DNA of 50,054 nt from Candidatus Odyssella sp. (lineage in GTDB: Bacteria > Pseudomonadota > Alphaproteobacteria > Bin65), in the NCBI GenBank assembly GCA_016792765.1, contig JAEULD010000229.1, forward strand, positions 1 to 50,054, given 5' to 3'. The position numbers and the translations under genes are program-made. The notes below the pieces were generated by a model. The model did not search any database. It had not been told where the DNA came from and saw only the letters and a list, made by a program, of their open reading frames with translations. Below, piece by piece: positions 335 to 25,120 of this stretch (within the stretch, counting starts at the first letter, position 1; each line of letters begins with the position of its first letter).

Positions 335-474
335 CCATGCGCGCGGGGGCGGCCGGCGCCGCGCTCCCGCCGCGTATTGCGCTTCGGCGCAGGCGGCCTG
401 TAAGTACCGGATGCAGGACCGCGCCGGCTTCGGATTGGAGAGCGGTCCGGCAGCGATGCGGGGGCGCCGCGACG

Positions 475-1947: not shown

Positions 1948-1959
1948 GGCGCTGCGGAC

Positions 1960-3177: not shown

Positions 3178-3344
3178 AGCGCGAGCCCCCTCCGTCGTCG
3201 CCGCAGCCTATCAGGTGCCGCCGGCGATCATAAAGGGCGGCGCGAACCGCGCCGCTCGCCTTGTGCGTGCCGGAGACGAACGGCATGATCGCAGCGTGCG
3301 GCGCGCGCCGCGGCCGGCCGCCCCGTTCTCGACCCGAGCCTTTC

Positions 3345-6448: not shown

Positions 6449-6549
6449 GCGAGCTGCAACCGGCGGTCGGCGCCGCCGCGTGACTCGCGGAAATTCCTGT
6501 GCCAAGAAACGCACCGTGTCGGGGACCGTGAGGCTTCGGGGGGCCGCGC

Positions 6550-9775: not shown

Positions 9776-9849
9776 CCGGGCCGCGCCCCGCGCTTGTCAA
9801 TGCGCGGCGCCGCTGTTATGGGGGACGAGAGCGCGCGGCGCGCTTCAAC

Positions 9850-9854
9850 GGAGG
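9850..9854 (+). promoter_or_regulatory. Ribosome binding site fixing the gmhA start
   Basis: GGAGG-type purine run eight bases before a GTG at 9863. It favours that GTG over the upstream ATGs at 9794 and 9818, and the resulting protein length matches the family. Confidence 0.6.
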
Positions 9855-9862
9855 CATCTCGC

Positions 9863-10489
9863 GTGGGCGAATCCCATTTCGGCATCTATCTGGCCGAAGC
9901 GGCCTCGATCTGCCGGCAGATCGACGCGGCGGCGCTGGAGCGTCTCGCGCGCGAATTGCGCGCGCTGCGCGAGCGCGGCGGGCGGCTGTTCATCCTCGGC
10001 GTGGGCGGAAGCGCCGCGAACGCCAGCCACGCCGTCAACGATTTCCGCAAGCTCTGCGGTATCGAGGCCTATGCGCCGACCGACAACGTCTCCGAGCTCA
10101 CCGCGCGCACCAACGACGAGGGCTGGGAGACCGTGTTCGCGGCGTGGCTGCGCACGAGCCGCGCCGCGCCGGCCGACGCGGTGCTCGTGCTCTCGGTGGG
10201 CGGCGGGAGCGCCGAGCGCAACGTGAGCGCGAACCTCGTGCACGCGCTCGACGAGGCGAGGCGCGTCGGCATGCGCATCTTCGGCATCGTCGGCCGCGAC
10301 GGCGGCTACACCAAGAAGGTGGGCCACGAGGTGATCGTGGTGCCGACCGTTTCGCCCGAGCGCATCACGCCGCATACCGAGGCGTTCCAGGCCGTGGTCT
10401 GGCACGGGCTGGTGAGCCATCCCGAGCTGATGGTGCGGGACACCAAGTGGGAAGGCCTCGTCCGCCCGAAGGCAGCGACGCGTGGCTGA
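9863..10489 (+). CDS. gmhA: Phosphoheptose isomerase (sedoheptulose 7-phosphate isomerase)
   Basis: The 208-residue product is a single SIS (sugar isomerase) domain protein of the GmhA type. GmhA converts sedoheptulose 7-phosphate to D-glycero-D-manno-heptose 7-phosphate, the first committed step of heptose supply for LPS, S-layer or capsule. The phosphosugar-binding loop is seen as 'LFILGVGGSAANASHAVNDF', followed by 'AYAPTDNVSELTARTNDEGW' and the second loop 'VLVLSVGGGSAERNVSANL'. The GTG start at 9863 is set by the Shine-Dalgarno sequence just upstream. It opens a forward operon and overlaps gmhB by 8 bases. The linked heptose phosphatase supports the GmhA assignment over other SIS isomerases. 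Confidence 0.88.
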   Translation: MGESHFGIYLAEAASICRQIDAAALERLARELRALRERGGRLFILGVGGSAANASHAVNDFRKLCGIEAYAPTDNVSELTARTNDEGWETVFAAWLRTSRAAPADAVLVLSVGGGSAERNVSANLVHALDEARRVGMRIFGIVGRDGGYTKKVGHEVIVVPTVSPERITPHTEAFQAVVWHGLVSHPELMVRDTKWEGLVRPKAATRG

Positions 10490-11048
10490 TCCCGCCGGCG
10501 CGCCGCCGGGCGCGAAGCGCGCCGTCTTTCTCGATCGCGACGGCGTCCTGAACCACGTCATGATTCGCGACGGCATGCCGTTCGGCCCGATGACGCTCGC
10601 CGAATTCGCGCTCGTCGAGGGCGCCGCGGACGACGTGCGGCGGCTCAAGGACGCCGGCTACGCGGTCATCGTCGCCACCAACCAGCCCGAGCTGGCGCGC
10701 GGCCGGCTGCAGCAATCCGCGCTCGATGCGATGCACGCGAAGCTGCGCGCCGAAGTGCCGGTGGATGCGATCTTCGTCTGTCCGCACGACGACGCCGACC
10801 GCTGCGCCTGTCGCAAGCCGGCGCCCGGTCTGCTACTGTCGGCGGCGCGCGCGCACGGAATCGATCTCGCCCGCAGCTTCATGGTGGGCGACCGCTGGCG
10901 CGACGTCGAGGCCGGCCGCGCGGCGGGCTGCCGGACCGTGCTCGTGGACATGGGCTACCGCGAGTCGCTGCGGTCGCCGCCGGACCATGTCGCGGCCGGG
11001 CTCCGCGCGGCGGTGCGCTGGATCTTGGGCGACCGCGCCGAACGCTAG
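10482..11048 (+). CDS. gmhB: D-glycero-D-manno-heptose 1,7-bisphosphate 7-phosphatase
   Basis: The 188-residue protein is a HAD phosphatase of the histidinol-phosphatase/GmhB subgroup. It removes the 7-phosphate from heptose 1,7-bisphosphate. The nucleophile and acid are D18 and D20 in 'VFLDRDGVLN', motif II is 'VIVATNQPELARG', the zinc loop is 'VCPHDDADRCACRKPAPG', and motif IV is 'SFMVGDRWRDVEAG'. All catalytic and zinc residues are present. The start is GTG at 10482, inside the end of gmhA, which implies translational coupling. It is the intact counterpart of the decayed GmhB-like domain fused to a nucleotidyltransferase at 21186-22313. Confidence 0.92.
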   Translation: MADPAGAPPGAKRAVFLDRDGVLNHVMIRDGMPFGPMTLAEFALVEGAADDVRRLKDAGYAVIVATNQPELARGRLQQSALDAMHAKLRAEVPVDAIFVCPHDDADRCACRKPAPGLLLSAARAHGIDLARSFMVGDRWRDVEAGRAAGCRTVLVDMGYRESLRSPPDHVAAGLRAAVRWILGDRAER

Positions 11049-11067
11049 CCGAGGGGATCGAGAACCG

Positions 11068-11808
11068 ATGACCAAGCCGCCCGAACTCACGATCAAGGTT
11101 TTCGCCGACGGCGCGGAGCTCGACGCGATCGCGAAGCTCGCCGCGTCGCCGCTGATCAAAGGGTTCACGACCAACCCCACGCTGATGCGGAAGGCCGGCG
11201 TCGCCGACTACCGCGCCTTCGCGCAGGCGGTGCTCCGCGCCGTGCCGGACAAGCCGGTGAGCTTCGAGGTGTTCGCCGACGATTTCGAGGGCATGCGCGA
11301 CCAGGCGACCGAGATCGGGCGCTGGGGCCGCAACGTGAACGTCAAGATCCCGGTCACGAACACCGGCGGCGTGTCGTCGGAGCCGCTGATCCGCGAGCTC
11401 TCGCGCCGCGGCGTTTCGCTCAACGTCACCGCGGTGTTCACGCTCGAGCAGGTGCAGGGCATCGCCGCCGCGCTCGACCCCGCGGTGCCGGCGATCGTCT
11501 CGGTGTTCGCGGGGCGCATCGCCGACACCGGCCGCGACCCGATCCCGATCATGCGCGCCTGCAAGGCGGCGCTGCGCGCGCTGCCCAGGGCCGAGCTGCT
11601 CTGGGCCAGCCCGCGCGAGCTGCTGAACGTGTTCCATGCGCAGGAAGCCGGCGCCGACATCATCACGATGACGCCCGACATGCTCGCGAAGCTCAAGGGC
11701 GTCGGCAAGGACCTGACCGAGTTCAGCCGCGAGACCGTGGAAATGTTCTATCGCGACGCGCAGGCGGCCGCCTACACGATCGCGGTGCCGCGGGCGACCG
11801 CGGCCTGA
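11068..11808 (+). CDS. Transaldolase-family protein
   Basis: This 246-residue protein belongs to the short transaldolase/fructose-6-phosphate aldolase family. The Schiff-base lysine is K93 in 'NVNVKIPVTNTGG'. 'IKVFADGAELDAI' gives the conserved Asp14 and 'GFTTNPTLMRKAG' is the family TTNP motif; 'SLNVTAVFTLEQVQ' and 'VSVFAGRIADTGRDP' are also typical. Known members make or cleave sedoheptulose 7-phosphate or fructose 6-phosphate. Its place directly behind gmhA and gmhB suggests it supplies sedoheptulose 7-phosphate for heptose synthesis (inference). It could instead act on a modified sugar. ATG at 11068 with GAGG upstream. Confidence 0.85.
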   Translation: MTKPPELTIKVFADGAELDAIAKLAASPLIKGFTTNPTLMRKAGVADYRAFAQAVLRAVPDKPVSFEVFADDFEGMRDQATEIGRWGRNVNVKIPVTNTGGVSSEPLIRELSRRGVSLNVTAVFTLEQVQGIAAALDPAVPAIVSVFAGRIADTGRDPIPIMRACKAALRALPRAELLWASPRELLNVFHAQEAGADIITMTPDMLAKLKGVGKDLTEFSRETVEMFYRDAQAAAYTIAVPRATAA

Positions 11809-11836
11809 GCGCCGGCGACCGAGAGCGAGGACGGGG

Positions 11837-12796
11837 TTGGCCAGAGCCTTCGTGACCGGCGCCGCCGGCTTCATCGGCAGCACGCTCGTGGACCGCCTGC
11901 TCGCGCGCGGCGACGAGGTCGTGGGCTGGGACGATCTCTCGACCGGCCTCGCCGAGTTCCTCGACGGCGCGCGCGGGAATGCGCGCTTCCGCTTCGTGCG
12001 CGGCGACACGCTCGACCGCGCCGGCATGACGGCGGCAATGGCCGGCTGCGACACGGTCTTCCACATGGCCGCGAACGCCGACGTGCGCTTCGGCACCGAG
12101 CACCCCGAGAAGGACCTCAAGCAGAACACCATCGCGACGTTCAACGTGCTGGAGGCGATGCGCGCGAACGGCATCCGGCGCATCGCGTTCCCCTCCACCG
12201 GATCGGTCTATGGCGAGCACGCGACGATCCCCACGCCGGAGGATGCGGCGTTTCCGGTGCAGACCTCGCTCTACGCCGCCTCGAAGCTCGCCGGCGAGGG
12301 CCTGATCAGCGCCTATTGCGAGGGCTTCGGCTTCGAGGGCTGGATCTTCCGCTTCGTGTCGATCCTCGGCGAGCGCTACACGCACGGGCACGTGTTCGAC
12401 TTCTACAAGAAGCTGCTCGCGAACCCCGGCGTCCTCGACGTGCTCGGCGACGGCACGCAGCGCAAATCCTACCTCTACGTCCAGGATTGCATCGACGCGA
12501 TCTTCCTCGCGATGGAGAAGGCGCGCGGCAAGGTGCAGGTGCTCAATCTCGGGCACGAGAGCTATATCGACGTGAAGCGGTCGGTCGGCTGGATCACCAA
12601 GGCCCTCGGGCTCGCGCCGGAAATCCGCTACGGCGGCGGCGCGCGCGGCTGGATCGGCGACAATCCGTTCATTTTCCTCGACACCGCGCGCATCCGGGCG
12701 CTGGGCTGGCGGCCCAAGGTTTCGATCGAGGACGCCGTGATCAGGACGCTGCGCTGGCTGGAAGCCAACCGCTTCGTGCTCGAGCGGCGGCGCTAG
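11837..12796 (+). CDS. NAD-dependent nucleotide-sugar epimerase/dehydratase (extended SDR)
   Basis: The 319-residue protein is an extended short-chain dehydrogenase close to UDP-glucose 4-epimerase. The cofactor loop is 'FVTGAAGFIGSTLVDRLL', the substrate-site motif is 'VFHMAANADVRFG', and the catalytic triad is set by 'PSTGSVYGEH' (Ser/Thr) and 'SLYAASKLAGEGLI' (Tyr and Lys four apart). The start is a TTG at 11837 after GAGCGAGGACGGGG. Substrate is likely a nucleotide-bound hexose or heptose, given the linked heptose genes, but this cannot be told from sequence. It is 28 bases after the transaldolase and 4 bases before the next gene. Confidence 0.85.
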   Translation: MARAFVTGAAGFIGSTLVDRLLARGDEVVGWDDLSTGLAEFLDGARGNARFRFVRGDTLDRAGMTAAMAGCDTVFHMAANADVRFGTEHPEKDLKQNTIATFNVLEAMRANGIRRIAFPSTGSVYGEHATIPTPEDAAFPVQTSLYAASKLAGEGLISAYCEGFGFEGWIFRFVSILGERYTHGHVFDFYKKLLANPGVLDVLGDGTQRKSYLYVQDCIDAIFLAMEKARGKVQVLNLGHESYIDVKRSVGWITKALGLAPEIRYGGGARGWIGDNPFIFLDTARIRALGWRPKVSIEDAVIRTLRWLEANRFVLERRR

Positions 12797-12800
12797 CGCG

Positions 12801-14093
12801 ATGACGGCGATCTGCGTCTATGGCCTCTGGCACCTCGGCCTCGTGACGGCGGCCTGCCTCGCCGAGGCCGGGTTCGAGGTCGGCGCGTCCGATCCCGATC
12901 CGGCGCGCATGCGCGACCTGCTCGCCGGCACGCTGCCGCTCTACGAGCCCGGGCTCGAGGAGTTGGTCGCCGCCGGCCGGGCCTCCGGCAAGCTGCGCTT
13001 CGCGGCCGACCCCGCCGAGGCCGTGCGCGGCGCCGGGATCGTGTGGATCGCGATCGACACGCCGGTGGACGACGACGACAACGCCGACGCGGCGCATGTG
13101 ACGAACGCGGTGCGCGCGCTGTTTCCGCATCTCGCCGACGGCGCCATCGTGCTCTCGTCGTCGCAACTGCCGGTCGGCAGCGTCGGCGCGCTGGCGGCGG
13201 CGTTCGCGGCGGAGGCGCGGGGGCGCACCGCCGATTTCTGCTGCAGCCCCGAGAATCTCCGCCTCGGCGCCGCGCTCGGCGTCTTCCGCAAGCCGGGCTA
13301 CGTCGTCATCGGCGCCGACAGCGAGCGCCCGCGCGCGCGGCTCGAGGCGGTGTTCCGCCGCTTCACCGACACGATCCTGTTCACCTCGGTACGCTCGGCG
13401 GAGATGGTGAAGCACGCGCTCAATACGTTCCTCGCCACGACGATCGCCTATTCCAACGAGATCGCGCGCCTGTGCGAGCGGACCGGCGCGGATGCGCGCG
13501 ACGTGGAGCGGGCGCTGCGCTGCGATCCGCGCGTCGGCGCCAAGGCCTATGTGCGCGCCGGGCCGGCCTTCGCCGGCGGCACGCTGGCGCGCGACGTCGT
13601 CTATCTCGCGGGCATCGCGGCCGAGACGAGCCTGGACCTGCCGCTGCTCGGCCGCATCGTCGAGAGCAACAACGCGCACCGGCTCTGGACTTATCGGCGC
13701 CTCGTCGAGCTGTTCGGCGCGAGACTCGCGGAGATGAACGTCGCCGTGCTCGGCCTCGCCTACAAGGCGGGCACCAGCGCGCTGCGCCGCTCGCAGGCGC
13801 TGGAACTGATCCGCCGCCTCGCGCCGCACGGAACGGCCATCAGCGCGTTCGATCCCAAGGTGCGCGCGCTCGACGGCGCCGCGTTCGCCCATGTGCGCGT
13901 CTGCGCCGACATCGACGACGCGATCCGCGGCGCCGACGCGATCGCAGTGATGACCGACTGGCCGGAATTCAAGGCGCTCGACGCCGCGCGCGTGAAGCGC
14001 CTGATGCGCAGCCCCTGCGTCGTCGATGCGTTCGGAATGCTCGAGGCCGGCATGGACACGGTGCCGTACTACGCGGTGGGGTTCGCGCGATGA
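12801..14093 (+). CDS. UDP-glucose/GDP-mannose dehydrogenase-like protein lacking the catalytic cysteine
   Basis: The 430-residue protein has all three domains of the UDP-glucose 6-dehydrogenase family: an NAD domain beginning 'ICVYGLWHLGLVTAACLAEA', a central helical domain with 'SPENLRLG' and 'EMVKHALNTFLATT' (K204 and N208 retained), and a C-terminal Rossmann domain 'NVAVLGLAYKAGTSALRRS'. The family's catalytic site GxGxGGSCFPKD reads instead 'GPAFAGGTLARD': the cysteine is Thr261, while the Asp (D265) is kept. A four-electron oxidation to a uronic acid needs that cysteine, so this enzyme probably does not make a uronate. It might carry out a single oxidation, act as an epimerase, or be inactive. 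The C-terminal TDDxR substrate motif is also changed to TSALR. Confidence 0.8.
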   Translation: MTAICVYGLWHLGLVTAACLAEAGFEVGASDPDPARMRDLLAGTLPLYEPGLEELVAAGRASGKLRFAADPAEAVRGAGIVWIAIDTPVDDDDNADAAHVTNAVRALFPHLADGAIVLSSSQLPVGSVGALAAAFAAEARGRTADFCCSPENLRLGAALGVFRKPGYVVIGADSERPRARLEAVFRRFTDTILFTSVRSAEMVKHALNTFLATTIAYSNEIARLCERTGADARDVERALRCDPRVGAKAYVRAGPAFAGGTLARDVVYLAGIAAETSLDLPLLGRIVESNNAHRLWTYRRLVELFGARLAEMNVAVLGLAYKAGTSALRRSQALELIRRLAPHGTAISAFDPKVRALDGAAFAHVRVCADIDDAIRGADAIAVMTDWPEFKALDAARVKRLMRSPCVVDAFGMLEAGMDTVPYYAVGFAR

Positions 14094-14929
14094 AGCTGGC
14101 GGGCAAGCGCGCGATCGTCACCGGCGCGGGCTCGGGCCTCGGCGCCGCGATCGCGGAACGATTCGCCGCCGAGGGCGCGGCGCTCGCGCTCGCGGGCCGG
14201 CGGCGCGCGGCGCTCGAAGCCGTCGCCGGCGCGATCCGCAAGACCGGCGCGAAAGCGACCGTCGTCGTCTGCCCGGCCGATCTCGCGCGCGAGGACGACG
14301 TCGCCCGCCTCGTCGAGACGGCGGCGGGCGCGCTCGGCGGCGTCGACATCGTCGCGAACAGCGCCGGCGTCAACGGGCCGTTCGGCACCGTCGACGAGGT
14401 GGACTGGCCGGCCTGGCGCGCGGCGTTCGAGGTGAACTTCTTCGGCGCGGTGAATCTGTGCCGCCTCGCGCTGCCCCATCTCCGCCGCGCCGCGCGCGGC
14501 AAGATCGTATTGATCTCGGGCGGCGGCGCCACGGCGCCGCTGCCGAAGATCACGGCCTACGGCGCGGCCAAGGCGGCGCTGGTGCGCTATGCCGAATCGC
14601 TGGCGCTGGAGCTGGGCGCCGCCGTCGACGTGAACTGCGTGGCGCCCGGCGCGATGAAGACCCAGCTCACCGACGAGTATCTCGAGAAAGGCAAGGGCGT
14701 GCTGCCGGCCGATTTCCTGGCGCGCATCGAGAAGCTGCTCGCCGACGGCGGCACGCCGCCCGCGCGCGCCGCCGACCTCGCCGTCTGGCTCGCCTCGGCC
14801 GACAGCGACGGGCTCAGCGGCAAGTTGATCTCGGCGGTGTGGGACCCGTGGCCGTTCGGCGCGGCCGAGCGCAAGGCATTGATGGCCGGCGAGGCTTATA
14901 CGCTGCGCCGCGTCGTGCCCAAGGACTGA
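14090..14929 (+). CDS. Classical SDR oxidoreductase
   Basis: This 279-residue classical short-chain dehydrogenase overlaps the previous stop by four bases (ATGA). The cofactor motif is 'AIVTGAGSGLGAAIAERFA', the NNAG equivalent is 'IVANSAGVNGPF', the catalytic Ser lies in 'IVLISGGGATAP' and Tyr-Lys in 'TAYGAAKAALVRY'. It is a normal length with a 40-residue C-terminal extension ('LSGKLISAVWDPWPFG'). In this operon it probably reduces a keto-sugar nucleotide or oxidises a sugar hydroxyl (inference from neighbours). The substrate is not readable. Confidence 0.85.
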   Translation: MKLAGKRAIVTGAGSGLGAAIAERFAAEGAALALAGRRRAALEAVAGAIRKTGAKATVVVCPADLAREDDVARLVETAAGALGGVDIVANSAGVNGPFGTVDEVDWPAWRAAFEVNFFGAVNLCRLALPHLRRAARGKIVLISGGGATAPLPKITAYGAAKAALVRYAESLALELGAAVDVNCVAPGAMKTQLTDEYLEKGKGVLPADFLARIEKLLADGGTPPARAADLAVWLASADSDGLSGKLISAVWDPWPFGAAERKALMAGEAYTLRRVVPKD

Positions 14930-14930
14930 C

Positions 14931-15728
14931 ATGGCGGCGGTGCCGAAGCTGCTCGTCACCGGCACCGCGAGCGGGCTTGGCGCGGCCTTGCACCGCGCGC
15001 TCGGCGGAACGCCGATGACGCGCGCCACGCCATGGACCGAGATCGAAGCCGGCGCACCCTACGACGCGATCCTTCATTGCGCGTTCGGTTCGCAGAAGCG
15101 CGTGACGCCGGCCAGCGCCCACGCCTATCTCGACGACAACGTGCTGCTGACCGAACGGCTCGCGCGCCTGCCGCACGGGAAGTTCGTGTTCGTCTCGTCG
15201 ATCGACGTCTATCCGGCGCCGCGGCAGGGCGCCCGGGAGGACGACGACTACGACCTCGCACGGCTCGCGGGCCCCTACCCGCTCGCGAAGCTGTTCTCCG
15301 ACGCGCTGGTGCGGGCGCGCTGCGCGAACCACCTGATCCTCAGGCCCGCGAGCCTGCTCGGGTCCGCGATGCGCCCGAGCACGACGCTGCGCATGCTGAC
15401 CGAGCGCGCGCCGCGCGTCTTCCTGCATCCCGATTCGCGCTTCAACTTCGTGCTGCACGAGGACATCGCCGCCTTCGTCGCGCGCGCGCTCGCCGAAGAC
15501 ATCCGCGGCGTCTTCAACGTCGCTTCGACGGACTCGGTGCGCCTCGGCGACATGGCCGAACGCCTCGGCCTGGCCGCGACGTTCGGCGAGCACGTCTACG
15601 ACGCCGGCAATGTGGCCAACGCCAAGATCGCCGCGCTCGAGCCCGCGTTCCGGCGCAGCAGCGCCGAGACGCTCAACCGCTTCGTCGACAGTTTGGGCAG
15701 CCGCTTCGTCGGCCGCGGGCGGATGTGA
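14931..15728 (+). CDS. NAD-dependent epimerase/dehydratase-family protein (atypical extended SDR)
   Basis: The 265-residue protein is an extended-SDR relative. The N-terminus 'KLLVTGTASGLGAALHRAL' is the cofactor loop, 'YDAILHCAFGS' stands where the family has xxHLAA, 'KFVFVSSIDVYP' gives the catalytic Ser region and 'GPYPLAKLFSDALV' the Tyr-x3-Lys. It is shorter than usual (about 310) and the segment between the cofactor loop and substrate site is reduced, so NAD may be held differently. It is the last gene of the forward operon, one base behind the SDR before it, and lies tail to tail with the kinase at 15735 (6 bases). Likely a ketoreductase or epimerase on a nucleotide sugar. Confidence 0.75.
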   Translation: MAAVPKLLVTGTASGLGAALHRALGGTPMTRATPWTEIEAGAPYDAILHCAFGSQKRVTPASAHAYLDDNVLLTERLARLPHGKFVFVSSIDVYPAPRQGAREDDDYDLARLAGPYPLAKLFSDALVRARCANHLILRPASLLGSAMRPSTTLRMLTERAPRVFLHPDSRFNFVLHEDIAAFVARALAEDIRGVFNVASTDSVRLGDMAERLGLAATFGEHVYDAGNVANAKIAALEPAFRRSSAETLNRFVDSLGSRFVGRGRM

Positions 15729-15734
15729 CGCCGC

Positions 15735-16724
15735 TCAGGCGTCGGGCTCGTACAGCACGACGCGCGAGCCCGAGCGCTCGAAGCGGAACGGGATCTGGAG
15801 GTATTCGGCGAGCGCCGCCGACACCTGCGCGCGCCGCGCCGGCTCCATGAACAGCAGCATGAAGCCGCCGCCGCCCGCGCCCAGGAGCTTGCCGCCGATG
15901 GCGCCGGCCGCACGCGCGCGGGCGTAAATCGCATCGACCGCCTCCGTCGAAACGGCGTCGGACAGCGAGCGCTTGAGTTGCCAGCTTTCGTCGAGCAATT
16001 CGCCGAAGTCGCGCAGGTCGCGGCCGTTGGCGAGCACCTCGAGGCCCTCGTCCACCAGCGCCTGCATGCGGCGGACGACCGCCTCCTTTCCGGGCAGCGC
16101 GTCGATCTGCTTCTTTGCGACGTCGGACGCATGGCGCACGATGCCGGTGAAGAGCAGGATCATGTGCTCCTCGAGCGCCTGCCGGCGCGCATCGCTCATC
16201 GGCACCGGCTGCACGGCGTAATCGCCGTTCTGGCCGATGTCGACCCGGTTGAGGCCGCCGAACGCGGCGGCGATCTGGTCCTGGATGCCGACGTTCTCCT
16301 TGAGCAGCGTCTGCTCGAGGTGGATCGCCTCGTCGGCGAGGCGGCGCTTGCCGACGACCTCCCCGCGCAGCGTGAACAGAGCGTGGAGCAGGCCGACCGC
16401 GAAAGACGAGCTCGAGCCGAGGCCCGTGCGCGCCGGCAGATCGCCGAAATGATGCACCTCGAGCCCTTCGGTGAAGCCGAGATAGCGCATCGCCTCGCGC
16501 ACCGCGGGGTGCTCGATGCTGTCGGTGTCCTTGGTCGTCTCGATGCGCGACCACACCACGCGGTTCTTGTATTCGAAGAACGGCGGCAGGTTGCGGCACT
16601 GCAGATAGCAGTACTTGTTGATCGTGACCGAGAGCACCGCGCCGCCGTTGCGCCTGAACCAGGCGGGATAGTCGGTGCCGCCGCCGAGGAACGAGATGCG
16701 GAACGGAGTGGCGGTGATGATCAA
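15735..16724 (-). CDS. GHMP kinase, D-glycero-D-manno-heptose 7-phosphate kinase-like (copy 1)
   Basis: The 329-residue protein is a GHMP-family sugar kinase of the HddA type. HddA phosphorylates C1 of heptose 7-phosphate. The N-terminus 'LIITATPFRISFLGGGTDYP' is the family signature, the ATP loop is 'DLPARTGLGSSSSFAVGLL', and the C-terminal motif is 'GGKLLGAGGGGFMLLF'. A TTG start at 16724, preceded by GGAGG five bases upstream, puts the conserved N-terminus at residue 1. It begins 14 bases after the stop of the dehydratase gene and ends the reverse operon. A second HddA-like kinase lies at 23028-24014; the two differ markedly, so they may serve different sugars or anomers. Confidence 0.82.
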   Translation of the reverse strand: MIITATPFRISFLGGGTDYPAWFRRNGGAVLSVTINKYCYLQCRNLPPFFEYKNRVVWSRIETTKDTDSIEHPAVREAMRYLGFTEGLEVHHFGDLPARTGLGSSSSFAVGLLHALFTLRGEVVGKRRLADEAIHLEQTLLKENVGIQDQIAAAFGGLNRVDIGQNGDYAVQPVPMSDARRQALEEHMILLFTGIVRHASDVAKKQIDALPGKEAVVRRMQALVDEGLEVLANGRDLRDFGELLDESWQLKRSLSDAVSTEAVDAIYARARAAGAIGGKLLGAGGGGFMLLFMEPARRAQVSAALAEYLQIPFRFERSGSRVVLYEPDA

Positions 16725-16729
16725 TTCGC

Positions 16730-16734
16730 CCTCC
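16730..16734 (-). promoter_or_regulatory. Ribosome binding site fixing a TTG start
   Basis: GGAGG on the reverse strand, five bases before the TTG at 16724. It supports the TTG start of the GHMP kinase over longer in-frame extensions that run into the upstream gene. Confidence 0.6.
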
Positions 16735-16738
16735 GGCC

Positions 16739-17758: not shown

Positions 17759-17778
17759 GGCGCCTCCGCAGCCCCCGC

Positions 17779-19062: not shown

Positions 19063-19087
19063 CGCATCCCCCTGCTCTGCCGAATTC

Positions 19088-20152
19088 TCAGAACGGCCCC
19101 CGGAACTCCGCGATCTCGCGCGCGACGATGTCGCGCGCCTGCCAGTCGCCGGGCGCGCGGCCGGCGAGCGCGGCCACCTTCGCGGCGATGCTCTTGGCGC
19201 TCGGATAGTACACGTCTTCGAGCGGCCGCGTCGTCGGGCATGGCGTCGGCTCGTAGCCGAGGCGCAGCGCGCTGAATGCCCGCCTGCCCTGCAAGCGCTC
19301 GTGCACGGCGGCGACGATCTCGGCGCCGGCGCCGCAGGCGGCCCAGCTCGTGTCGACGACCGCGAGGCGGCCGGTCTTCGCCACCGACTCCGCGATCGTG
19401 CCGACGTCGAGCGGCGCCAGGCTGACCGGGTCGACGATCTCGGCCGAGAGCCCGATCTCTGCGAGCAAAGGCCGCGCGCGCAACGCCTCCACGACCATGT
19501 GGCTGATGGCGACGATCGTGACGTCGTCGCCTTCGGCCAGCACGCGCGCCTGGCCGAACCGCGCGGCGTAGGGCGCCTCGGGCACGATGCCGCGATTGCC
19601 GTAGAGCATGCGGTGCTCCATGACGATCACCGGATTGTCGTCGCGGATCGCGGCGATCATGCAGCCCTTGGCGTCGTGCGGCGTCGACGGCGCCAGCACC
19701 TTCAGGCCCGGCACGTGCATGAAATAGGAGTGGAACGCCTGGCTGTGCTGGGCGCCCTGCCCCCAGCTGCGCCCGATGATCGCGCGCACGACGAGCGGCA
19801 CGTGCACGGCGCCGTTGCTCATGTAGCTCTGCTTCGCCGCCATGTTGACGAGCTGGTTCATGCAGAGCATGAGAAAATCCATGCGCTGATGCACGTGGAT
19901 CGGGCGCATGCCGGCGATGGCCGCGCCGACGCCGAAGCCGGTCATCGCGTCCTCGGCCAGCGGCGTGTCGAAGCAGCGGTCGGCGCCGAAGACGCGGTGG
20001 AGATCGAGCGTCGTGCCGTACATGCCCTTGGGATCGTCGACGCCGAGGCCGTAGACGAACACGCCGGCGTCGCGCTCCATCTCCTGGCGGATCGCCTCGC
20101 CGATCGCCTGCGCGTAGCTGAGCTCGCGCCCGCCGCGCCTACCTGTAGACAT
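19088..20152 (-). CDS. Thiamine-diphosphate dehydrogenase E1 component, beta subunit
   Basis: The 354-residue protein matches the beta subunit of heterotetrameric 2-oxoacid dehydrogenase/acetoin dehydrogenase E1. 'LSYAQAIGEAIRQEMERDAG' opens the domain, 'CFDTPLAEDAMTGFGVGAA' carries the conserved activating Glu region, 'GRSWGQGAQHSQAFHSYF' is the typical core, and the C-terminal transketolase domain runs through 'VVDTSWAACGAGAEI'. Its start overlaps the alpha subunit by 14 bases. No E2 acyltransferase or E3 gene lies nearby, and all neighbours make nucleotide sugars. A carboligase or decarboxylase role on a sugar is therefore more likely than oxidative decarboxylation (inference). Confidence 0.85.
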   Translation of the reverse strand: MSTGRRGGRELSYAQAIGEAIRQEMERDAGVFVYGLGVDDPKGMYGTTLDLHRVFGADRCFDTPLAEDAMTGFGVGAAIAGMRPIHVHQRMDFLMLCMNQLVNMAAKQSYMSNGAVHVPLVVRAIIGRSWGQGAQHSQAFHSYFMHVPGLKVLAPSTPHDAKGCMIAAIRDDNPVIVMEHRMLYGNRGIVPEAPYAARFGQARVLAEGDDVTIVAISHMVVEALRARPLLAEIGLSAEIVDPVSLAPLDVGTIAESVAKTGRLAVVDTSWAACGAGAEIVAAVHERLQGRRAFSALRLGYEPTPCPTTRPLEDVYYPSAKSIAAKVAALAGRAPGDWQARDIVAREIAEFRGPF

Positions 20153-21089
20153 GGTCGTACATCGTGTGGGCGGCGGGGAACGGGCTCTTCTCGGCGAAAT
20201 CCATCGCGCGCGCGATCTCGGCCTCGACCTCGGCGTCGATGCGCTCGCGCGCGGCGGCGCCGAGCAGGCCGGCGAGCCGCGCGTTCTGATCGCCGGCGCG
20301 CCACGACGCGAGATCGGCCGCCGTGCGGTAGCCGATGTGGAGATCCTCGCCGGGGCCGACATGGTCGCGCCAGCGCTGCGTCTCGCATTCGAGGAAGCGC
20401 GGGCCGCCGCCGGCGCGCACCGCGGCGACCGCCTCCGCCGCGGCGGCCCGGATCGCGAAAATGTCGCCGCCGGCGATGCGCCTGGCCGGGATGCGATAGG
20501 CCTCGGCGCGCTCGCAGAGGTTCACCTCGGGCATGCGGTCCTTCACATGCGAGTAGATGGCATAGCGATTGTTCTCGCACACGAACAGGATCGGAAGTTT
20601 CTTGAGCGCGGCGAAATTCGCCGTCTCGTGGAACACGCCCTCGTCCATGGCGCCTTCGCCGAAGAAGACGCAGACGATCGCCGCCGACCCGCGCCGCCTC
20701 AGCGCGAAGGCGTGGCCGAGCGACAAGGGCAGCGTGGTGCCGACGATGGCGCTGGTGCCGATCATGCCCGCGGCGACGTCGCCGAGATGCATCGAGCCCG
20801 CCTTGCCGGCGGCGAGGCCGTCCTGCTTGCCGTAGAGCTCGGCCATCATGCGGTCGAGGTTGCCGCCTTTCGCGAGATAGATCGCGTGGCCGCGATAGGT
20901 TCCGTAGAGGATGTCGTCCGGGCCGAGATTGTCGCAGACGCCCACCGCCACCGCTTCCTGGCCGATCGAGAGATGCACCGGGCTCTTGATCTTGTCGGTG
21001 GGATAGATGCGGACGATCTCTTCCTCCACGCGCCGGATGCGGCGGAGCTGGCAATACAGCCGCTCGATCGTTGCGGGGTCGTGCGTCAT
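20139..21089 (-). CDS. Thiamine-diphosphate dehydrogenase E1 component, alpha subunit
   Basis: The 316-residue protein is the alpha subunit partner. It has the thiamine-diphosphate motif starting at GEG (144-146) in 'VFFGEGAMDEGVFHETANFA' and ending at NN (173-174) in 'FVCENNRYAIYS'. 'GKAGSMHLGDVAAGMIG' and 'SIGQEAVAVGVCDNL' are typical of pyruvate, acetoin and branched-chain E1 alpha chains. The 'RYAIYSHV' stretch replaces the usual 'YGxS' region, hinting at a different substrate. The phosphorylation-loop region common in pyruvate dehydrogenases is short. It lies 96 bases behind the nucleotidyltransferase fusion and is coupled to the beta gene. The pair is the most unusual part of this sugar operon. 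Confidence 0.85.
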   Translation of the reverse strand: MTHDPATIERLYCQLRRIRRVEEEIVRIYPTDKIKSPVHLSIGQEAVAVGVCDNLGPDDILYGTYRGHAIYLAKGGNLDRMMAELYGKQDGLAAGKAGSMHLGDVAAGMIGTSAIVGTTLPLSLGHAFALRRRGSAAIVCVFFGEGAMDEGVFHETANFAALKKLPILFVCENNRYAIYSHVKDRMPEVNLCERAEAYRIPARRIAGGDIFAIRAAAAEAVAAVRAGGGPRFLECETQRWRDHVGPGEDLHIGYRTAADLASWRAGDQNARLAGLLGAAARERIDAEVEAEIARAMDFAEKSPFPAAHTMYDHVYR

Positions 21090-21185
21090 GCGCGGTCGGG
21101 CCGGTGGGAGGCGGATGCTGCGGAACTCATTGGCGCGGGCCGGGTGTCTCCGGTCAAGACCAAATCTCGCGCGCGCCGAATCGTG

Positions 21186-22313
21186 TCAAGGTTGCGCCGG
21201 CACCGCCGCTGCAACGACCGCGTCGAGATCCCCTTGCGCGCGGAAGACGGCGAGACAAGGCGGCGTTTGCGGAACGATGCGCGGGCCGCCGGTGACGAGC
21301 AGGCCGCCCGCTTCGGCGATCCGCCACTCCGCGCGCGCCGATTCGAGCAGCGCATCGAAGGCCGAGTCCGAACGGGCGGCATAGAGCGCGTCGATATGCG
21401 CGCCCTGCCGCTGCAGCGCGGCGTTGAGGCGGCGGCGCAGCGCGGGCCCCCGTGACACGCCGGGGGCGAGCACGATCGCGTAGTATCCGGCGTCGTTGAG
21501 GCGGCGCAGCGCGCCGGCCGCGCCCTTGCGCCAGCGCGTCCGGGTTGCCGCGCCGCCCGCGGCGGCCAGCGCGCCGAGTTCGACGATCGCACCGGGCCGG
21601 CGATGCCAGGCCGGGAACAGGCCGCGCGCCTCGGCAAGGGAGTCGGGCAGGCCGATATCGATGAAGCGCCCCGCGAACCGCACCGCACGCAGCGCGCCCT
21701 CGGCGGCGAGCGCCGGCAGAACGTCGCGCTCCAGCGAGAGCGGCGGCCGGGCGACCTGCCGCAGCACGCGTTCGCGGTCGAACAGATAGACGCCGGCATT
21801 GACGAGGCCGGGCCCGCCCGCACCCTTCTCGCGGAAGGCCACGATGCGATCGCCCGCGCACGCGATGCGGCCGTAGCGCGCGGCGTCGGGCACCGCGAGC
21901 GCCGCGACGGCGCCGGCCGCCGCGCGGTCTTCGGCCATCGCCGCCGCGAGGCGCAGCAGGTTTCCGTCGAGGATCGAATCGCCGTTCAGCAGGAAGAAGC
22001 GCGGCGCGAGCCGCCGGCGCGCATGCCAGAGCGCGCCCGCGGTGCCGGCGGGCTCGGGCTCGGAGATCAGCGCCAGCCGCGGCGCGGACCGGCGCGCCGG
22101 CCGCAGCGCCCGCGCGAAGGCCGCGCGATGCGGGCCGACCAGCAGCAGGACCTCCTCGACGCCGATGCGGCCGAGTTCGAACAACAGGTGCTCGACGAAC
22201 GGGCGGCCGCCCACGTCGAGCAGCGGCTTCGGCGTGTCCGCCGCGATCGCGCCGAGCCGCGTGCCGCGCCCGCCGGCCACGATCACCGCCTGCCGCACCG
22301 GAGGGGTTCGCAC
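21186..22313 (-). CDS. Sugar-1-phosphate nucleotidyltransferase fused to a degenerate GmhB-like domain
   Basis: The 375-residue protein has two parts. Residues 9-238 form a nucleotidyltransferase: 'AVIVAGGRGTRLGAIA' with 'TPKPLLDVGGRPFVEHLL', 'FFLLNGDSIL' and 'FIDIGLPDSLAEA' as in HddC-type heptose-1-phosphate guanylyltransferases. Residues 239-375 retain the outline of GmhB: 'GAAGALRRLNDAGYYAIVL', 'SRGPALRRRLNAALQRQGAH' and 'IDALYAA' align with that family. The catalytic Asp-x-Asp is replaced ('AIVELGALA'), the TNQ is APG, and the zinc cysteines and VGD loop are gone. Nucleotidyltransferase activity is likely; phosphatase activity is not. Start GTG at 22313 (weak GGGG upstream) or GTG at 22298. 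Confidence 0.8.
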   Translation of the reverse strand: MRTPPVRQAVIVAGGRGTRLGAIAADTPKPLLDVGGRPFVEHLLFELGRIGVEEVLLLVGPHRAAFARALRPARRSAPRLALISEPEPAGTAGALWHARRRLAPRFFLLNGDSILDGNLLRLAAAMAEDRAAAGAVAALAVPDAARYGRIACAGDRIVAFREKGAGGPGLVNAGVYLFDRERVLRQVARPPLSLERDVLPALAAEGALRAVRFAGRFIDIGLPDSLAEARGLFPAWHRRPGAIVELGALAAAGGAATRTRWRKGAAGALRRLNDAGYYAIVLAPGVSRGPALRRRLNAALQRQGAHIDALYAARSDSAFDALLESARAEWRIAEAGGLLVTGGPRIVPQTPPCLAVFRAQGDLDAVVAAAVPAQP

Positions 22314-22323
22314 GGGCGCGCCC

Positions 22324-23031
22324 CTACCCGCGCTGCCCGCGCAGATAGGCCGCGAGGTCGGCGAGGCCCTCGTGCGAGCCGATCTCGTAGAACCGCTCGG
22401 GTACTTCGCACGCCGCGAGGCGGCCGCGCGCAAGCAGGCGCTGGAACACGGCGCTGAGATCGAACTCCGCGCCGTCCGCGAAACCGGCGAAGGCTTCGCG
22501 CGTCAGCACGTTCAGGCCGTAGTCGATGTGCCGCATCGCGGGGTCGCGGTCGGCCTTGTCGTATTTCACGATGATGCCGCCTTCGCAGCGGAGATTGCTG
22601 GCGCCCCAGCGGCCCTCGTTGCGGAACGCCGTCATCAGCCCCTCGGCGCCGGGCACGCTTTCGAACCGCCGCGCGACCGCGCGGTAGTCGCAGGTGAGGT
22701 AGGAATCGCCGTAGAGCACGAAGAACGGGCTTCCCAGCAGCGGCAGCGCCTTCATCACGGCGCCGCCGGTGCCGAGCCGCACGGGACCGTCGTGGCTGTA
22801 GCGGATTTCGACGCCGAAGCGCGCGCCGTCGCCGACCACGGCCTCGATCGCCTCGGCGAGATGGCCGACCGCGAGCACCGCGCGGCGCACGCCGTTGCGC
22901 TTCAGCAGATCGAGCTGCAGGCAGACGAACGGCGTGCCCTCCACCTCGATCAGCGATTTCGGCCGGCGGGCGGTGAGCGGGCCGAGCCGTGTCGCCAGGC
23001 CGCCCGCGAGGATCAGCGCCTCTTCGATCAT
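22324..23031 (-). CDS. HddC-like sugar-1-phosphate nucleotidyltransferase
   Basis: This 235-residue protein is a single-domain nucleotidyltransferase. The signature is 'EALILAGGLATRLGPLTARR' followed by 'PKSLIEVEGTPFVCLQLDLL', 'GPVRLGTGGAVMKAL', 'FFVLYGDSYL' with the catalytic Asp, and 'ERFYEIGSHEGLADLAAYL' at the end. In the HddA/GmhA/GmhB context the best guess is D-glycero-alpha-D-manno-heptose 1-phosphate guanylyltransferase (HddC). Its ATG overlaps the HddA-like kinase stop by four bases (ATGA), as expected for enzymes of consecutive steps. A second nucleotidyltransferase lies just downstream; the pair suggests two activated sugars or a subunit partnership. Confidence 0.82.
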   Translation of the reverse strand: MIEEALILAGGLATRLGPLTARRPKSLIEVEGTPFVCLQLDLLKRNGVRRAVLAVGHLAEAIEAVVGDGARFGVEIRYSHDGPVRLGTGGAVMKALPLLGSPFFVLYGDSYLTCDYRAVARRFESVPGAEGLMTAFRNEGRWGASNLRCEGGIIVKYDKADRDPAMRHIDYGLNVLTREAFAGFADGAEFDLSAVFQRLLARGRLAACEVPERFYEIGSHEGLADLAAYLRGQRG

Positions 23032-24014
23032 GTCTCGAGGATGCGCGTTCCGGACTGATCGAAGCCGAAGCGCAGCTCGCGCAGGCCCTGCCCCTCCATC
23101 GCGCGGCGCAGGCGGTTGGGCTCGGGCGCGTAGAACAGCAGGAACCCGCCGCCGCCCGCGCCGACGAGCTTGCCGCCCGCCGCGCCGTTGGCGCGCGCAT
23201 GGGCATAGATTTCGGCGATGCGCGGATTGGCCATGGATTTCGAGCGCTCCTGCTTCCGCACCCAATGGCGGTGCATGAGCTCGCCGTAGGCCGCGAAATC
23301 CCCGGCCTCGAGCGCCGCGCCGATCTCCTGCCCGATCGTCTTCACCTCGTCGAGATTGGCGAGCATCGCGGCGTCGGCGGCTTCGGTGCGCGATTTCTGC
23401 TCGGCCAGGATATCGCCGGCCGCGCGCGTCTTGCCGGTGAAGAACAGCAGCAGCGAATCCTCGAGCAGCGCGATCTTCTCGCGCGCGATCTTGATCTCCC
23501 GGATCGTCACCGAATCGTCGGGATTGAAGACGTAGCGGCGCAGCCCGCCGAACGTCGCCGCATACTGGTCCTGCTTGCCGATCGGCGCGCCGAGCCGGTC
23601 GATCTCGATCGCGCAGGCCAGCTCGGCGAGCTGCGGACGGTCGAGAAAGCGGTGCCAGTGCGCGGACAGCGCCTGGAGCAGCGCGCAGGTGAAGCTCGAC
23701 GACGAGCCGAGGCCGGTGCCGGCCGGCACGTCGGCGAGCGTCGTGATCTCGATCGCCGGCGTCTCCCCCTGCGGCAGGAACTCGCGCAGCGCCTCGCGCA
23801 GGATGTTGTGCCGCACCTCGTCGACGCGCTCCACCTTCTCCAGCGCCGAATACTTCAGATAGATGCCGGGAAAGAACGGCTCGGTGACGGTGACGTAGAT
23901 GTATTTGTCGATCGCCGCCGCGATCAGATCGCCGCCGTTGCGCCGATAGTAGGAGGGAAGATCGGTGCCGCCGCCGCCGATCGAGATGCGCAACGGGCTA
24001 CAGGCTATGATCAT
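23028..24014 (-). CDS. hddA: GHMP kinase, D-glycero-D-manno-heptose 7-phosphate kinase-like (copy 2)
   Basis: The 328-residue protein is an HddA-type GHMP kinase. 'MIIACSPLRISIGGGGTDLP' is the N-terminal signature, 'DVPAGTGLGSSSSFTCALL' the ATP loop, 'GAPIGKQDQYAATFGGLRRY' the conserved sugar-site segment and 'GGKLVGAGGGGFLLFY' the C-terminal glycine motif. It fits the step between GmhA and GmhB in the GDP-heptose route: C1 phosphorylation of heptose 7-phosphate. The start ATG at 24014 sits 17 bases inside the upstream oxidoreductase gene, and the 3' end overlaps the nucleotidyltransferase start, so the three are translated as a set. Confidence 0.85.
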   Translation of the reverse strand: MIIACSPLRISIGGGGTDLPSYYRRNGGDLIAAAIDKYIYVTVTEPFFPGIYLKYSALEKVERVDEVRHNILREALREFLPQGETPAIEITTLADVPAGTGLGSSSSFTCALLQALSAHWHRFLDRPQLAELACAIEIDRLGAPIGKQDQYAATFGGLRRYVFNPDDSVTIREIKIAREKIALLEDSLLLFFTGKTRAAGDILAEQKSRTEAADAAMLANLDEVKTIGQEIGAALEAGDFAAYGELMHRHWVRKQERSKSMANPRIAEIYAHARANGAAGGKLVGAGGGGFLLFYAPEPNRLRRAMEGQGLRELRFGFDQSGTRILET

Positions 24015-24996
24015 AGTCGCTCTTGGCGCGGACGGATTGGGCGATGGCGAGGGCGGCGGCGGCGTCGGCGAGTCCGGGATCGGGCGCACGACCCAGCCGG
24101 ATATCCTCGGCGAAGGCCGCGAGCTCTTCGTCCCACGAGAGATCGGGGCCGGGAAACTCCCAGCTCTCGATGTCGGGCGGGCCCATTTCGGGCTTCATCT
24201 TGTAGAACGTCAACCGCTCCGTGCCGTAGCTGCCGCCGAGCCCGTCGATCGCGAGCTTGGCGGTGCGCCCGAAGATCTCGAACGAGAAGAGGTTCTTCCA
24301 TTCGGTCCAGCTCGCATGGAGCTGCGCGACCTGCCCGGCTGCCGTGCGCAGCAGGAAGAACGCGTTGTCCTCGACGCTGCCGGGCCAGAAGAACGAGGCG
24401 GCGTGCCCCTCGATCTCCGCGAAATCGCCGAGGAACCAGCGCGCGAGATCGACGAGGTGCGTGCCCTGGTCGATGGCCTCGCCGCCGCCGGAGATTTCCG
24501 GCCGGAAGCGCCATTCCTTCTCGTAGCCGAGCCGCCCGCCATGGCCGTAGCGGCCGCGGACATAGAGCAGGTCTCCGGCGGCGCCGCCCGCGACGAGCGC
24601 GCGCGCCTTCCGTACCGCGGGATGGAAGCGATGGTTGAAACCGACGCGGACGAGGACGCCCCGGGCCCGCGCCGCGTCCGCGAGCGGCGCCAGCTCGCGC
24701 GCATGGCGCGCACCGGGCTTCTCGATCAGCACGTGCCGGCCCGCCGCGATCATGCGCGCGGCGAGCGGCGCCAGCGCGTCGTGCGGCGTCGCCACGACGA
24801 CGAGATCGAGCGGCAGCGCGGCGAGCGCGGCCGGATCGGCGCAGGCCTGGGCACCCATCGCTTGGGCGAGCGCGGCGGCGCGCGCGTCGTCGGGGTCGGA
24901 CACCGCCGCCACCGCGTGGCCGAGCCGTTGCGCCGCGTCGGCGCGCTTCCTGCCGATCAGGCCGCAGCCGATGATGCCGATGCGAAGTGGCGGCAT
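23998..24996 (-). CDS. Gfo/Idh/MocA family oxidoreductase
   Basis: The 332-residue protein has the N-terminal NAD(P) fold 'LRIGIIGCGLIGRKRADAA' and the family's catalytic-lysine motif 'HVLIEKPGARHARELAPLA'. The C-terminal domain follows with 'VGFNHRFHPAVRKARALV', 'GGGEAIDQGTHLVDLARWFL' and 'AQLHASWTEWKNLFSFEIFG'. Members oxidise or reduce sugars and sugar nucleotides, often at C3 or C4. It is the first gene of the reverse operon; GGGGGAC just before the ATG at 24996 is a good ribosome site. In the proposed pathway it could reduce a keto-heptose intermediate (inference). Confidence 0.87.
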   Translation of the reverse strand: MPPLRIGIIGCGLIGRKRADAAQRLGHAVAAVSDPDDARAAALAQAMGAQACADPAALAALPLDLVVVATPHDALAPLAARMIAAGRHVLIEKPGARHARELAPLADAARARGVLVRVGFNHRFHPAVRKARALVAGGAAGDLLYVRGRYGHGGRLGYEKEWRFRPEISGGGEAIDQGTHLVDLARWFLGDFAEIEGHAASFFWPGSVEDNAFFLLRTAAGQVAQLHASWTEWKNLFSFEIFGRTAKLAIDGLGGSYGTERLTFYKMKPEMGPPDIESWEFPGPDLSWDEELAAFAEDIRLGRAPDPGLADAAAALAIAQSVRAKSDYDHSL

Positions 24997-25045: not shown

Positions 25046-25120
25046 TGGTTGGGGCGGTAGGGATCGAACCTACGAATGCCGGAATCAAAATCCGGTGCCT
25101 TACCGCTTGGCGACGCCCCA
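25046..25120 (-). tRNA. tRNA-Gln (anticodon UUG)
   Basis: On the reverse strand the sequence folds into a full cloverleaf: acceptor TGGGGCG pairs with CGCCCCA, the D arm contains AAGCGGTAAGGC, and the anticodon stem CCGGA/TCCGG encloses loop TTTTGAT, giving anticodon TTG (Gln). The T arm is GTAGG with TTCGATC. The discriminator is A and the CCA end is encoded. It lies 49 bases upstream of the reverse glycan operon, and its 3' end points toward that operon. Confidence 0.93.

Follow-up and report, generated by a model that had tools for sequence, protein, structure and literature searches.

A convergent sugar-gene locus in Candidatus Odyssella sp. with a candidate route to a two-carbon-branched dideoxyheptose

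Gene content of the locus

The window analysed here, contig JAEULD010000229.1 of Candidatus Odyssella sp. (GCA_016792765.1), is an entire contig of 50,054 bases from an assembly of 4.6 Mb in 376 contigs that is 92.8% complete. It contains 16 sugar genes organized in two convergent operons, at 9,818-15,728 on the plus strand and 15,735-24,996 on the minus strand, which end tail to tail with a spacing of 6 bases (Table 1). Among these genes is a pair encoding the alpha and beta subunits of a thiamine diphosphate (ThDP)-dependent E1 enzyme, which, together with an adjacent 4,6-dehydratase and a ColD-type 3-dehydratase, may well produce a branched sugar of nine carbons. Genes were called from third-position GC content and Pfam, and families were assigned by comparison with Pfam, NCBIfam and the Protein Data Bank (PDB).

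The original prediction, made from the sequence alone, had described the locus as a single pathway to a 3,6-dideoxy, possibly carbon-branched heptose. Every family that it named is present where it had been placed, but its gene list overlooked the transaldolase gene. The plus-strand operon is real, though its first gene can start at 9,818 (ATG) or, in the same frame, at 9,794 (TTG), upstream of the earlier start at 9,863. This operon encodes a SIS-domain isomerase, a GmhB-like phosphatase, a transaldolase, a GalE-like epimerase, a nucleoside diphosphate (NDP)-sugar 6-dehydrogenase, a short-chain dehydrogenase/reductase (SDR) and the small epimerase/reductase EPI2. Reading from 24,996, the minus-strand operon encodes a Gfo/Idh/MocA oxidoreductase, the kinase KIN1, the nucleotidyltransferases NTP1 and NTP2, E1 alpha, E1 beta, the ColD-like enzyme, the 4,6-dehydratase and the kinase KIN2.

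Comparison with other genomes suggests that the locus consists of two modules, A and B, which look like separate units united here. The separation is drawn because transaldolase and NDP-sugar dehydrogenase genes were absent from all of 80 E1 loci (described below) whose flanks were examined, many of these loci being short, and because module A occurs in another genome (locus L146) with no E1 gene in its 20 kb. A single pathway using all 16 genes was rejected on the same grounds, and the earlier view that all of the enzymes form one route thus gives way to a branching module, B, and a transaldolase/NDP-sugar dehydrogenase module, A.

Table 1. Sugar genes of the window in order of position, with predicted product, module and main evidence
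Predicted product	Module	Position	Strand	Evidence
SIS-domain sugar-phosphate isomerase, distant from GmhA	A	9,818-10,489	+	PF13580 39 bits; TIGR00441 56 of 209 bits
GmhB-like HAD phosphatase	A, perhaps shared with B	10,482-11,048	+	TIGR01656 above cut-off; PRK08942 138 of 178 bits; DRDG intact
Transaldolase/fructose-6-phosphate aldolase family	A	11,068-11,808	+	PF00923 147 bits on longer open reading frame 10,726-11,808; VKIP lysine motif
GalE-like NDP-sugar epimerase	A	11,837-12,796	+	PF01370; PDB 3ehe 271 bits; 66% relative in L146
NDP-sugar 6-dehydrogenase (UGD family)	A	12,801-14,093	+	TIGR03026 295 bits, cut-off 190
SDR oxidoreductase	A	14,090-14,929	+	NCBIfam PRK07231 168 of 215 bits; 52% relative in L146
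EPI2, small NAD epimerase/reductase; candidate branch or C4 ketoreductase	B, perhaps	14,931-15,728	+	PF01370 50 bits
KIN2, HddA-type GHMP sugar-phosphate kinase	B	15,735-16,724	-	HddA NF049969 132 of 600 bits; PDB 3k85, 4n3o
GDP-heptose 4,6-dehydratase-like SDR (DmhA)	B	16,739-17,758	-	PDB 7us5 340 bits
ColD-type PLP 3-dehydratase, His for Lys	B	17,779-19,038	-	PDB ColD 2gms 279 bits; His column
E1 beta (predicted ThDP carboligase subunit)	B	19,088-20,152	-	PF02779 and PF02780; AQHSQ motif
E1 alpha, HVGP-loop type	B	20,139-21,089	-	PF00676 194 bits; loop RWRDHVGPGED
NTP2, HddC-type nucleotidyltransferase fused to degenerate HAD	B	21,186-22,313	-	PF00483 84 bits; alignment with L014, L041, L086
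NTP1, sugar-1-phosphate nucleotidyltransferase	A	22,324-23,031	-	PF00483 56 bits; 53-55% relatives with SIS and KIN1 relatives in L146, L148
KIN1, HddA-type GHMP kinase	A	23,028-24,014	-	HddA 152 of 600 bits; PDB 4usm, 3k85; 53-54% in L146, L148
Gfo/Idh/MocA oxidoreductase	A	23,998-24,996	-	PF01408 and PF22725; 55-58% relatives in L146, L148

The E1 pair and its companion enzymes

The two E1 subunits possess the motifs GEG...ENN (alpha) and AQHSQ (beta), which we take to be catalytic features of such proteins. Both score under the NCBIfam cut-offs for pyruvate dehydrogenase (PDH), alpha reaching 275 of 394 bits and beta 282 of 321 and 268 of 454 bits. A PDH-type E1 alpha/beta pair with an E2 gene is found on a different contig of the genome (C222), and the only two E2-family matches in the genome lie on other contigs than the window, one of them adjoining that pair. 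Given the scores, the location of the E2 genes and the lack of an HSMSDP loop in E1 alpha, an ordinary PDH was rejected as the identity of the window's E1 pair. A single acetohydroxyacid synthase-like polypeptide of the YerE kind does not fit either, since the window has a two-gene E1 pair.

Canonical E1 loci served as a control. The 20 stretches used (6.6-13 kb) surround the highest-scoring PF00676 matches in 20 Alphaproteobacteria and were drawn from 29 new loci in a list that ranks canonical E1 first. The loop R[YF]RGHSMSDP occurs in all 20 of these canonical-type loci and the HVGP loop in none, and matches to the ColD-type enzyme, KIN2 and the dehydratase DmhA are likewise absent from all 20. 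The alignment of E1 alpha proteins kept 97 of 111 rows (13 duplicate or short-flank loci and one row of fewer than 280 residues were dropped, and rows longer than 400 residues were trimmed to 340). At the loop position, 86 of the 97 rows have HVGP, three have HCGP, one each has HVGS, HVGI and HVGT, and five have another sequence. In a midpoint-rooted tree whose bootstrap had not settled and in which several long branches are unsure, the 92 rows with HVGP-like loops, including the window, group together (99/89) apart from the E1 alpha of the genome's own PDH. The loci nearest to the window are L005, L006, L014, L018, L035, L045 and L062, of which L018 joins at 91/88 only, and all seven have both a dehydratase relative (73-78%) and a ColD relative (61-73%).

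The companion enzymes of module B point toward a deoxygenated heptose. The best solved relative of the dehydratase in the PDB is 7us5, a GDP-D-glycero-D-manno-heptose 4,6-dehydratase, at 340 bits, compared with 187 bits for the runner-up, a GDP-6-deoxy-hexulose reductase, and 134 bits for the E. coli GDP-mannose 4,6-dehydratase. The SSE and YxxxK catalytic residues are kept in the alignment with 7us5. At the level of the family, then, the protein compares as a GDP-heptose 4,6-dehydratase, and its substrate is predicted to be a heptose. The pyridoxal phosphate (PLP)-dependent 3-dehydratase has the motif YSHHITTLEGG, with histidine at the position of the PLP-binding lysine as had been predicted, and ColD is its nearest solved structure. 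Its top NCBIfam model is RfbH, below the cut-off at 359 of 423 bits. The RfbH type is an iron-sulfur 3-dehydratase with a cysteine motif, and this motif is absent from the window protein since no cysteine is present downstream of EGGIC. The 3-dehydratase of the yersiniose pathway is also of the His type.

Enzymes for activation of the sugar are more distant from their namesakes. HddA (NF049969) is the top-scoring model for both KIN1 and KIN2, as the original prediction had it, but both fall far under its cut-off, and the predicted GmhA has the SIS domain but is a distant relative. NTP2, the second predicted HddC-type transferase, is indeed of that type but is fused to a HAD half without a DRDG motif. 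This motif is lost in the window and in Skermanella aerolata (L014) and intact in relatives from Magnetococcales (L041) and Azospirillum lipoferum 4B (L086); the decay in the former two looks as though a separate GmhB had assumed the role. A PDB search with EPI2 returned a single match, at chance level. EPI2 relatives were found near the dehydratase relative of L006 (37%, 2 kb past the dehydratase start) and in L008, L023 and L049 (38-42%).

The association of the E1 pair with ColD-type genes extends well beyond the window. E1 loci were collected by a profile search of genome contigs with the E1 alpha alignment alone, the 80 loci being the best of 505 confirmed, and neighbours were counted as the best non-overlapping tblastn match at 1e-8, partial contigs included. 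By this measure E1 beta is present in 78 of the 80 loci, the ColD family in 64, KIN2 in 44, NTP2 in 31, DmhA in 27, GmhB in 9 and SIS in 7. By hand count, 20 of the 27 DmhA matches have at least 43% identity and 8 have at least 70%, and the other 7 are distant SDRs. Where at least 3.5 kb are available past the E1 alpha start (69 loci), a match to the ColD family lies no more than 6 kb away, on either strand, in 56. Open reading frames of the DegT family to which these matches belong were read for 57 of the 64 loci, and all but one (L073, Lys) have the histidine. The search in other genomes that the original prediction had proposed recovered the E1 pair with a ColD-type gene widely, and the module A block in L146. 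Loci of the His type come from Pseudomonadota, Nitrospirota, Cyanobacteriota, Chloroflexota, Planctomycetota, Myxococcota, Poribacteria, Verrucomicrobiota, Levyibacteriota and Omnitrophota, and the E1 pair and a ColD-type gene occur together in records of at least 10 bacterial phyla. In L032 and L064, relatives of GmhB, NTP2, SIS and KIN2 adjoin the E1 genes, and this company fits a heptose-type activation.

The E1 family is patchy. At E 1e-80, with no more than five candidates scored per genome, a close E1 alpha was found in only 5 of 397 genomes of Pseudomonadota, counting this one, and at 1e-60 in 9 of 61 relatives. The named close relatives of E1 alpha are from Alphaproteobacteria. A search of plasmids at 1e-70 returned E1 alpha relatives from three Azospirillum plasmids only. 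In four Azospirillum plasmids (L085, L086, L218, L219) the E1 pair is followed by a DegT gene, and three of the four lie within or close to genes of the glycan type. The DegT protein is of the His type in the plasmids of A. lipoferum 4B, A. ramasamyi and A. thermophilum; the fourth plasmid is from A. oryzae.

A B12-radical-SAM family accompanies the E1 genes in 33 of the 80 loci (for example L054:13177-14239, L008, L015 and L032). The L054 protein, the one whose domains were checked, has PF02310 and PF04055 and is a cobalamin-binding radical SAM protein. Proteins of this family may carry out a further modification of the branched sugar. No member of this family is present among the window genes scanned with Pfam.

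A proposed route and its alternatives

Based on the families present, KIN2 and NTP2 would act together with GmhB and an isomerase to supply a GDP-activated heptose, which the dehydratase would convert to a 4-keto-6-deoxy sugar. The PLP enzyme would then strip the oxygen at C3 to give GDP-3,6-dideoxy-4-keto-heptose. ThDP bound to the E1 pair would decarboxylate pyruvate, and the resulting hydroxyethyl carbanion would attack the C4 ketone to leave a tertiary alcohol bearing an acetyl branch. The product, GDP-3,6-dideoxy-4-C-acetyl-heptose, would contain seven plus two carbons, and reduction of the branch ketone by EPI2 or another SDR would yield the 1-hydroxyethyl form, the heptose homologue of yersiniose. 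That the dehydratase, the ColD-type enzyme and the E1 pair act in sequence on GDP-heptose to make such a nine-carbon branched sugar, probably for a surface glycan, is given a probability of about 0.6. The order of 4,6-dehydration, 3-deoxygenation and branching that had been predicted is supported by the match to 7us5, by ColD as the nearest relative of the PLP enzyme, and by the wide occurrence of E1 with the His-type ColD gene as opposed to 0 of the 20 controls.

Precedents are known for each half of this route, and as a hypothesis it is well supported. C. jejuni converts GDP-heptose to the 4-keto-6-deoxy and then the 3,6-dideoxy-4-keto sugar with a 4,6-dehydratase and a PLP C3-dehydratase (PMC10440746, PMC10680097). 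The GDP-3,6-dideoxyheptose pathway of serotypes HS:5 and HS:11 resembles the route predicted for the window in these three features and in its GmhA/HddA/GmhB/guanylyltransferase activation scheme (PMC10440746). It differs in what follows, as described there: a C5-epimerase and a C4-reductase act in C. jejuni, whereas here the E1 pair would take the 4-keto sugar. The word 'thiamin' is absent from the main text of a 2023 overview (PMC10680097).

For the second half, a 2025 review describes E1-type alpha-KADH2 enzymes that add the C2 unit of pyruvate in the aldgamycin, kibdelomycin and related pathways, including KbDH of kibdelomycin, for which C2 ligation to ketones was demonstrated in vitro (PMC12247030). 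AviB1/AviB2 and Pau11/Pau12 are proposed branching enzymes of the E1 type (PMC4753412). Set side by side by description, these systems and the window share an E1 alpha/beta pair and, by prediction for the window, a keto-sugar acceptor and a C2 branch; the window type differs in being accompanied by ColD, a heptose-type dehydratase and glycosyltransferase genes, and in occurring in many phyla. The same review places alpha-KADH2 enzymes mainly in specialised products and antibiotic clusters, and YerE-like ones in cell structures such as lipopolysaccharide (PMC12247030). In yersiniose synthesis, too, it has a 3,6-dideoxy-4-keto sugar undergo ThDP-dependent C2 branching, although YerE is a single flavoprotein of the decarboxylase superfamily acting on a CDP-hexose, in contrast to the two-gene E1 type of the window. 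Thus the earlier suggestion that an alpha/beta E1 acting on a heptose would be new holds for the heptose and for the setting in a glycan locus, but not for sugar branching by such enzymes, which is known or proposed in antibiotic clusters.

The new part would be the union of both halves on a heptose in a glycan locus, together with its breadth across phyla. A literature search, outside which most subscription journals lay, found among the papers listed none on an E1-heptose branched sugar or a transaldolase-heptose glycan set, nor on the combination of a C2-branched dideoxyheptose with a lincosamide-like octose pathway. The gene pairs suggest that E1-type enzymes may likewise contribute to sugars of the cell surface, across many phyla and with a heptose as acceptor. 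The HVGP loop motif helps to find such E1 pairs, and the route to nine-carbon branched sugars can now be tested, with Skermanella aerolata (L014) as a named strain and A. lipoferum 4B (L086) as one for the wider E1-ColD family.

Several observations weigh against the proposed route. Of the 69 loci that extend far enough past the E1 alpha start, nine lack a ColD match in the flanks examined, the histidine of L056 sits in a diverged motif, and L020 ends at the motif. The stretches of L150 and L041 carry E1 and a 70-73% dehydratase without ColD, indicating that 3-deoxygenation is not always part of the set. Most of the 80 loci are without a close DmhA, which makes it likely that many of their E1 pairs use other sugars, and EPI2 relatives occur in only 4 of the 80. 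The C4 position and the pyruvate donor are proposed by analogy, and known enzymes of the E1 type branch at C3 or C4 (PMC12247030); the enzyme activities of module B are likewise predictions from family. In addition, the HVGP loop is shared by the E1 alpha proteins of two Streptomyces plasmids (about 51% over 73% of the query), those of S. griseofuscus pSGRIFU1 (L216:14920-16966) and L217. On pSGRIFU1 the E1 pair sits in a ketosynthase/carrier-protein cluster with butyrolactone regulators, not among sugar genes, and the loop is thus no proof of a sugar acceptor. Judged from its distribution, it appears to mark a carboligase-like E1 family.

Three other explanations were weighed against these data. 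The same branching could take place on a hexose, in which case the dehydratase would use GDP-mannose, the product would be a GDP-linked, yersiniose-like octose, and the heptose-type genes would serve module A only. Enzymes of E. coli O55:H7 and Y. pseudotuberculosis IVA use GDP-6-deoxy-4-keto-mannose (PMC10440746), and the low score of KIN2 against HddA agrees with such a scheme. It is nonetheless unlikely, given how much better the dehydratase matches the heptose enzyme than the GDP-mannose 4,6-dehydratase and that KIN2 accompanies E1 in 44 of 80 loci, when GDP-mannose would presumably need no HddA-type kinase. It is also rather improbable that modules A and B work in series, so that an activated octose built by the transaldolase is dehydrated and C2-branched to a ten-carbon sugar. 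Module A matches the enzyme classes for the lincosamide octose (PMC4351081), 5 of 20 transaldolase loci have a divergent E1 alpha, three of them with E1 beta, and E1 and transaldolase relatives on contigs of equal size (50,027; 27,060) hint that the modules lie together in near relatives. A separate kinase and nucleotidyltransferase in each module argue against a series, however, as do the E1 loci without transaldolase or NDP-sugar dehydrogenase in the flanks examined and the L146 module A without E1 in its 20 kb.

Finally, the E1 pair could belong to ordinary metabolism, as the E1 of a pyruvate, acetoin or branched-chain dehydrogenase or as a transketolase that provides sugar phosphates, and be present here by chance. 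The fold family and ThDP motifs are common with PDH E1, but the different loop and clade, the scores under the PDH cut-offs, the E2 genes on other contigs and the frequency of ColD and KIN2 beside E1 make this very improbable.

Beyond branching of GDP-heptose in the window, it is tentatively suggested that the HVGP-type E1 and His-type 3-dehydratase form a general, unrecognised C2-branching machine for higher sugars in the envelopes of at least 10 phyla, producing here a 4-C-branched 3,6-dideoxyheptose beside a lincosamide-like octose pathway; this broader proposal falls somewhat short of even odds.

Module A and the surrounding genes

Module A probably makes a second activated higher sugar, either an octose or a heptose. 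Gene classes reported for the lincosamide octose are lmbR, N, K, P, O, L, M and Z, and the transaldolase, isomerase, kinase, phosphatase, guanylyltransferase, dehydrogenase, epimerase and oxidoreductase classes all have counterparts in module A, in a comparison of class lists rather than sequences (PMC4351081). A difference is that the only DegT protein of the window is of the His type and not an LmbS-type aminotransferase (Lys). Bradyrhizose is a sugar of ten carbons. It is a bicyclic O-antigen sugar of Bradyrhizobium with a presumed 11-gene cluster that includes a putative 4,6-dehydratase (PMC4743980), and it was kept as a lead only and not as the product. Caryose and caryophyllose were also considered, and no link was drawn because the review ties caryophyllose to a YerE-like enzyme (PMC12247030).

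The SIS protein has a best PDB match at E 1e-10 and misses the GmhA cut-off of TIGR00441. Its relatives at 56-75% adjoin transaldolase genes elsewhere. Of 289 genomes from the class, 28 have transaldolase relatives at E 1e-40, this genome among them, and stretches from 20 of the 27 other matching genomes were examined. SIS is present in 13 of these 20 stretches, GmhB in 12, Gfo in 16 and NDP-sugar dehydrogenase in 14, many of the Gfo and dehydrogenase matches having 25-35% identity only; KIN1 relatives occur in 2 of the 20 (hand count). Module A is found again as a unit in a single further genome. There, L146 carries relatives (52-66%) of the transaldolase, SIS, NTP1, KIN1, Gfo, SDR, dehydrogenase and epimerase genes on one strand, with an adjoining GmhB match (41%) on the opposite strand. 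L148 has 6 of the 9 module A genes.

What speaks against a clean split between the modules is the divergent E1 alpha (41-45%) in 5 of the 20 transaldolase loci (L130, L131, L134, L143 and L147). E1 beta was seen in L130, L131 and L143, and the locus ends in the other two. Sugars built by transaldolase may thus be branched in other lineages too. An HldE-like kinase/nucleotidyltransferase fusion, identified by eye in L134, accompanies the clusters of transaldolase and divergent E1 alpha. L133, L136 and L145 contain a transketolase encoded by two genes, which was recognized by eye in L133, and their 20 kb stretches lack an E1 pair. It seems that ThDP enzymes replace one another among the transaldolase clusters for higher sugars.

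Glycosyltransferase and methyltransferase genes lie upstream at 190-9,775, which makes it likely that this is a glycan assembly locus. Elsewhere in the genome, a fragment of 63 residues from a protein closer to GmhA is found at a contig end (C182) and HldD above its cut-off on contig C118, indicating that a separate core ADP-heptose route is likely. Amid the glycosyltransferase genes, at 6550-7800, is an open reading frame of 416 residues with no Pfam or NCBIfam match. Genes for tRNAs are often boundaries of inserted gene blocks, and a tRNA-Gln (ttg) gene is located at 25046-25120, just upstream of the minus-strand operon.

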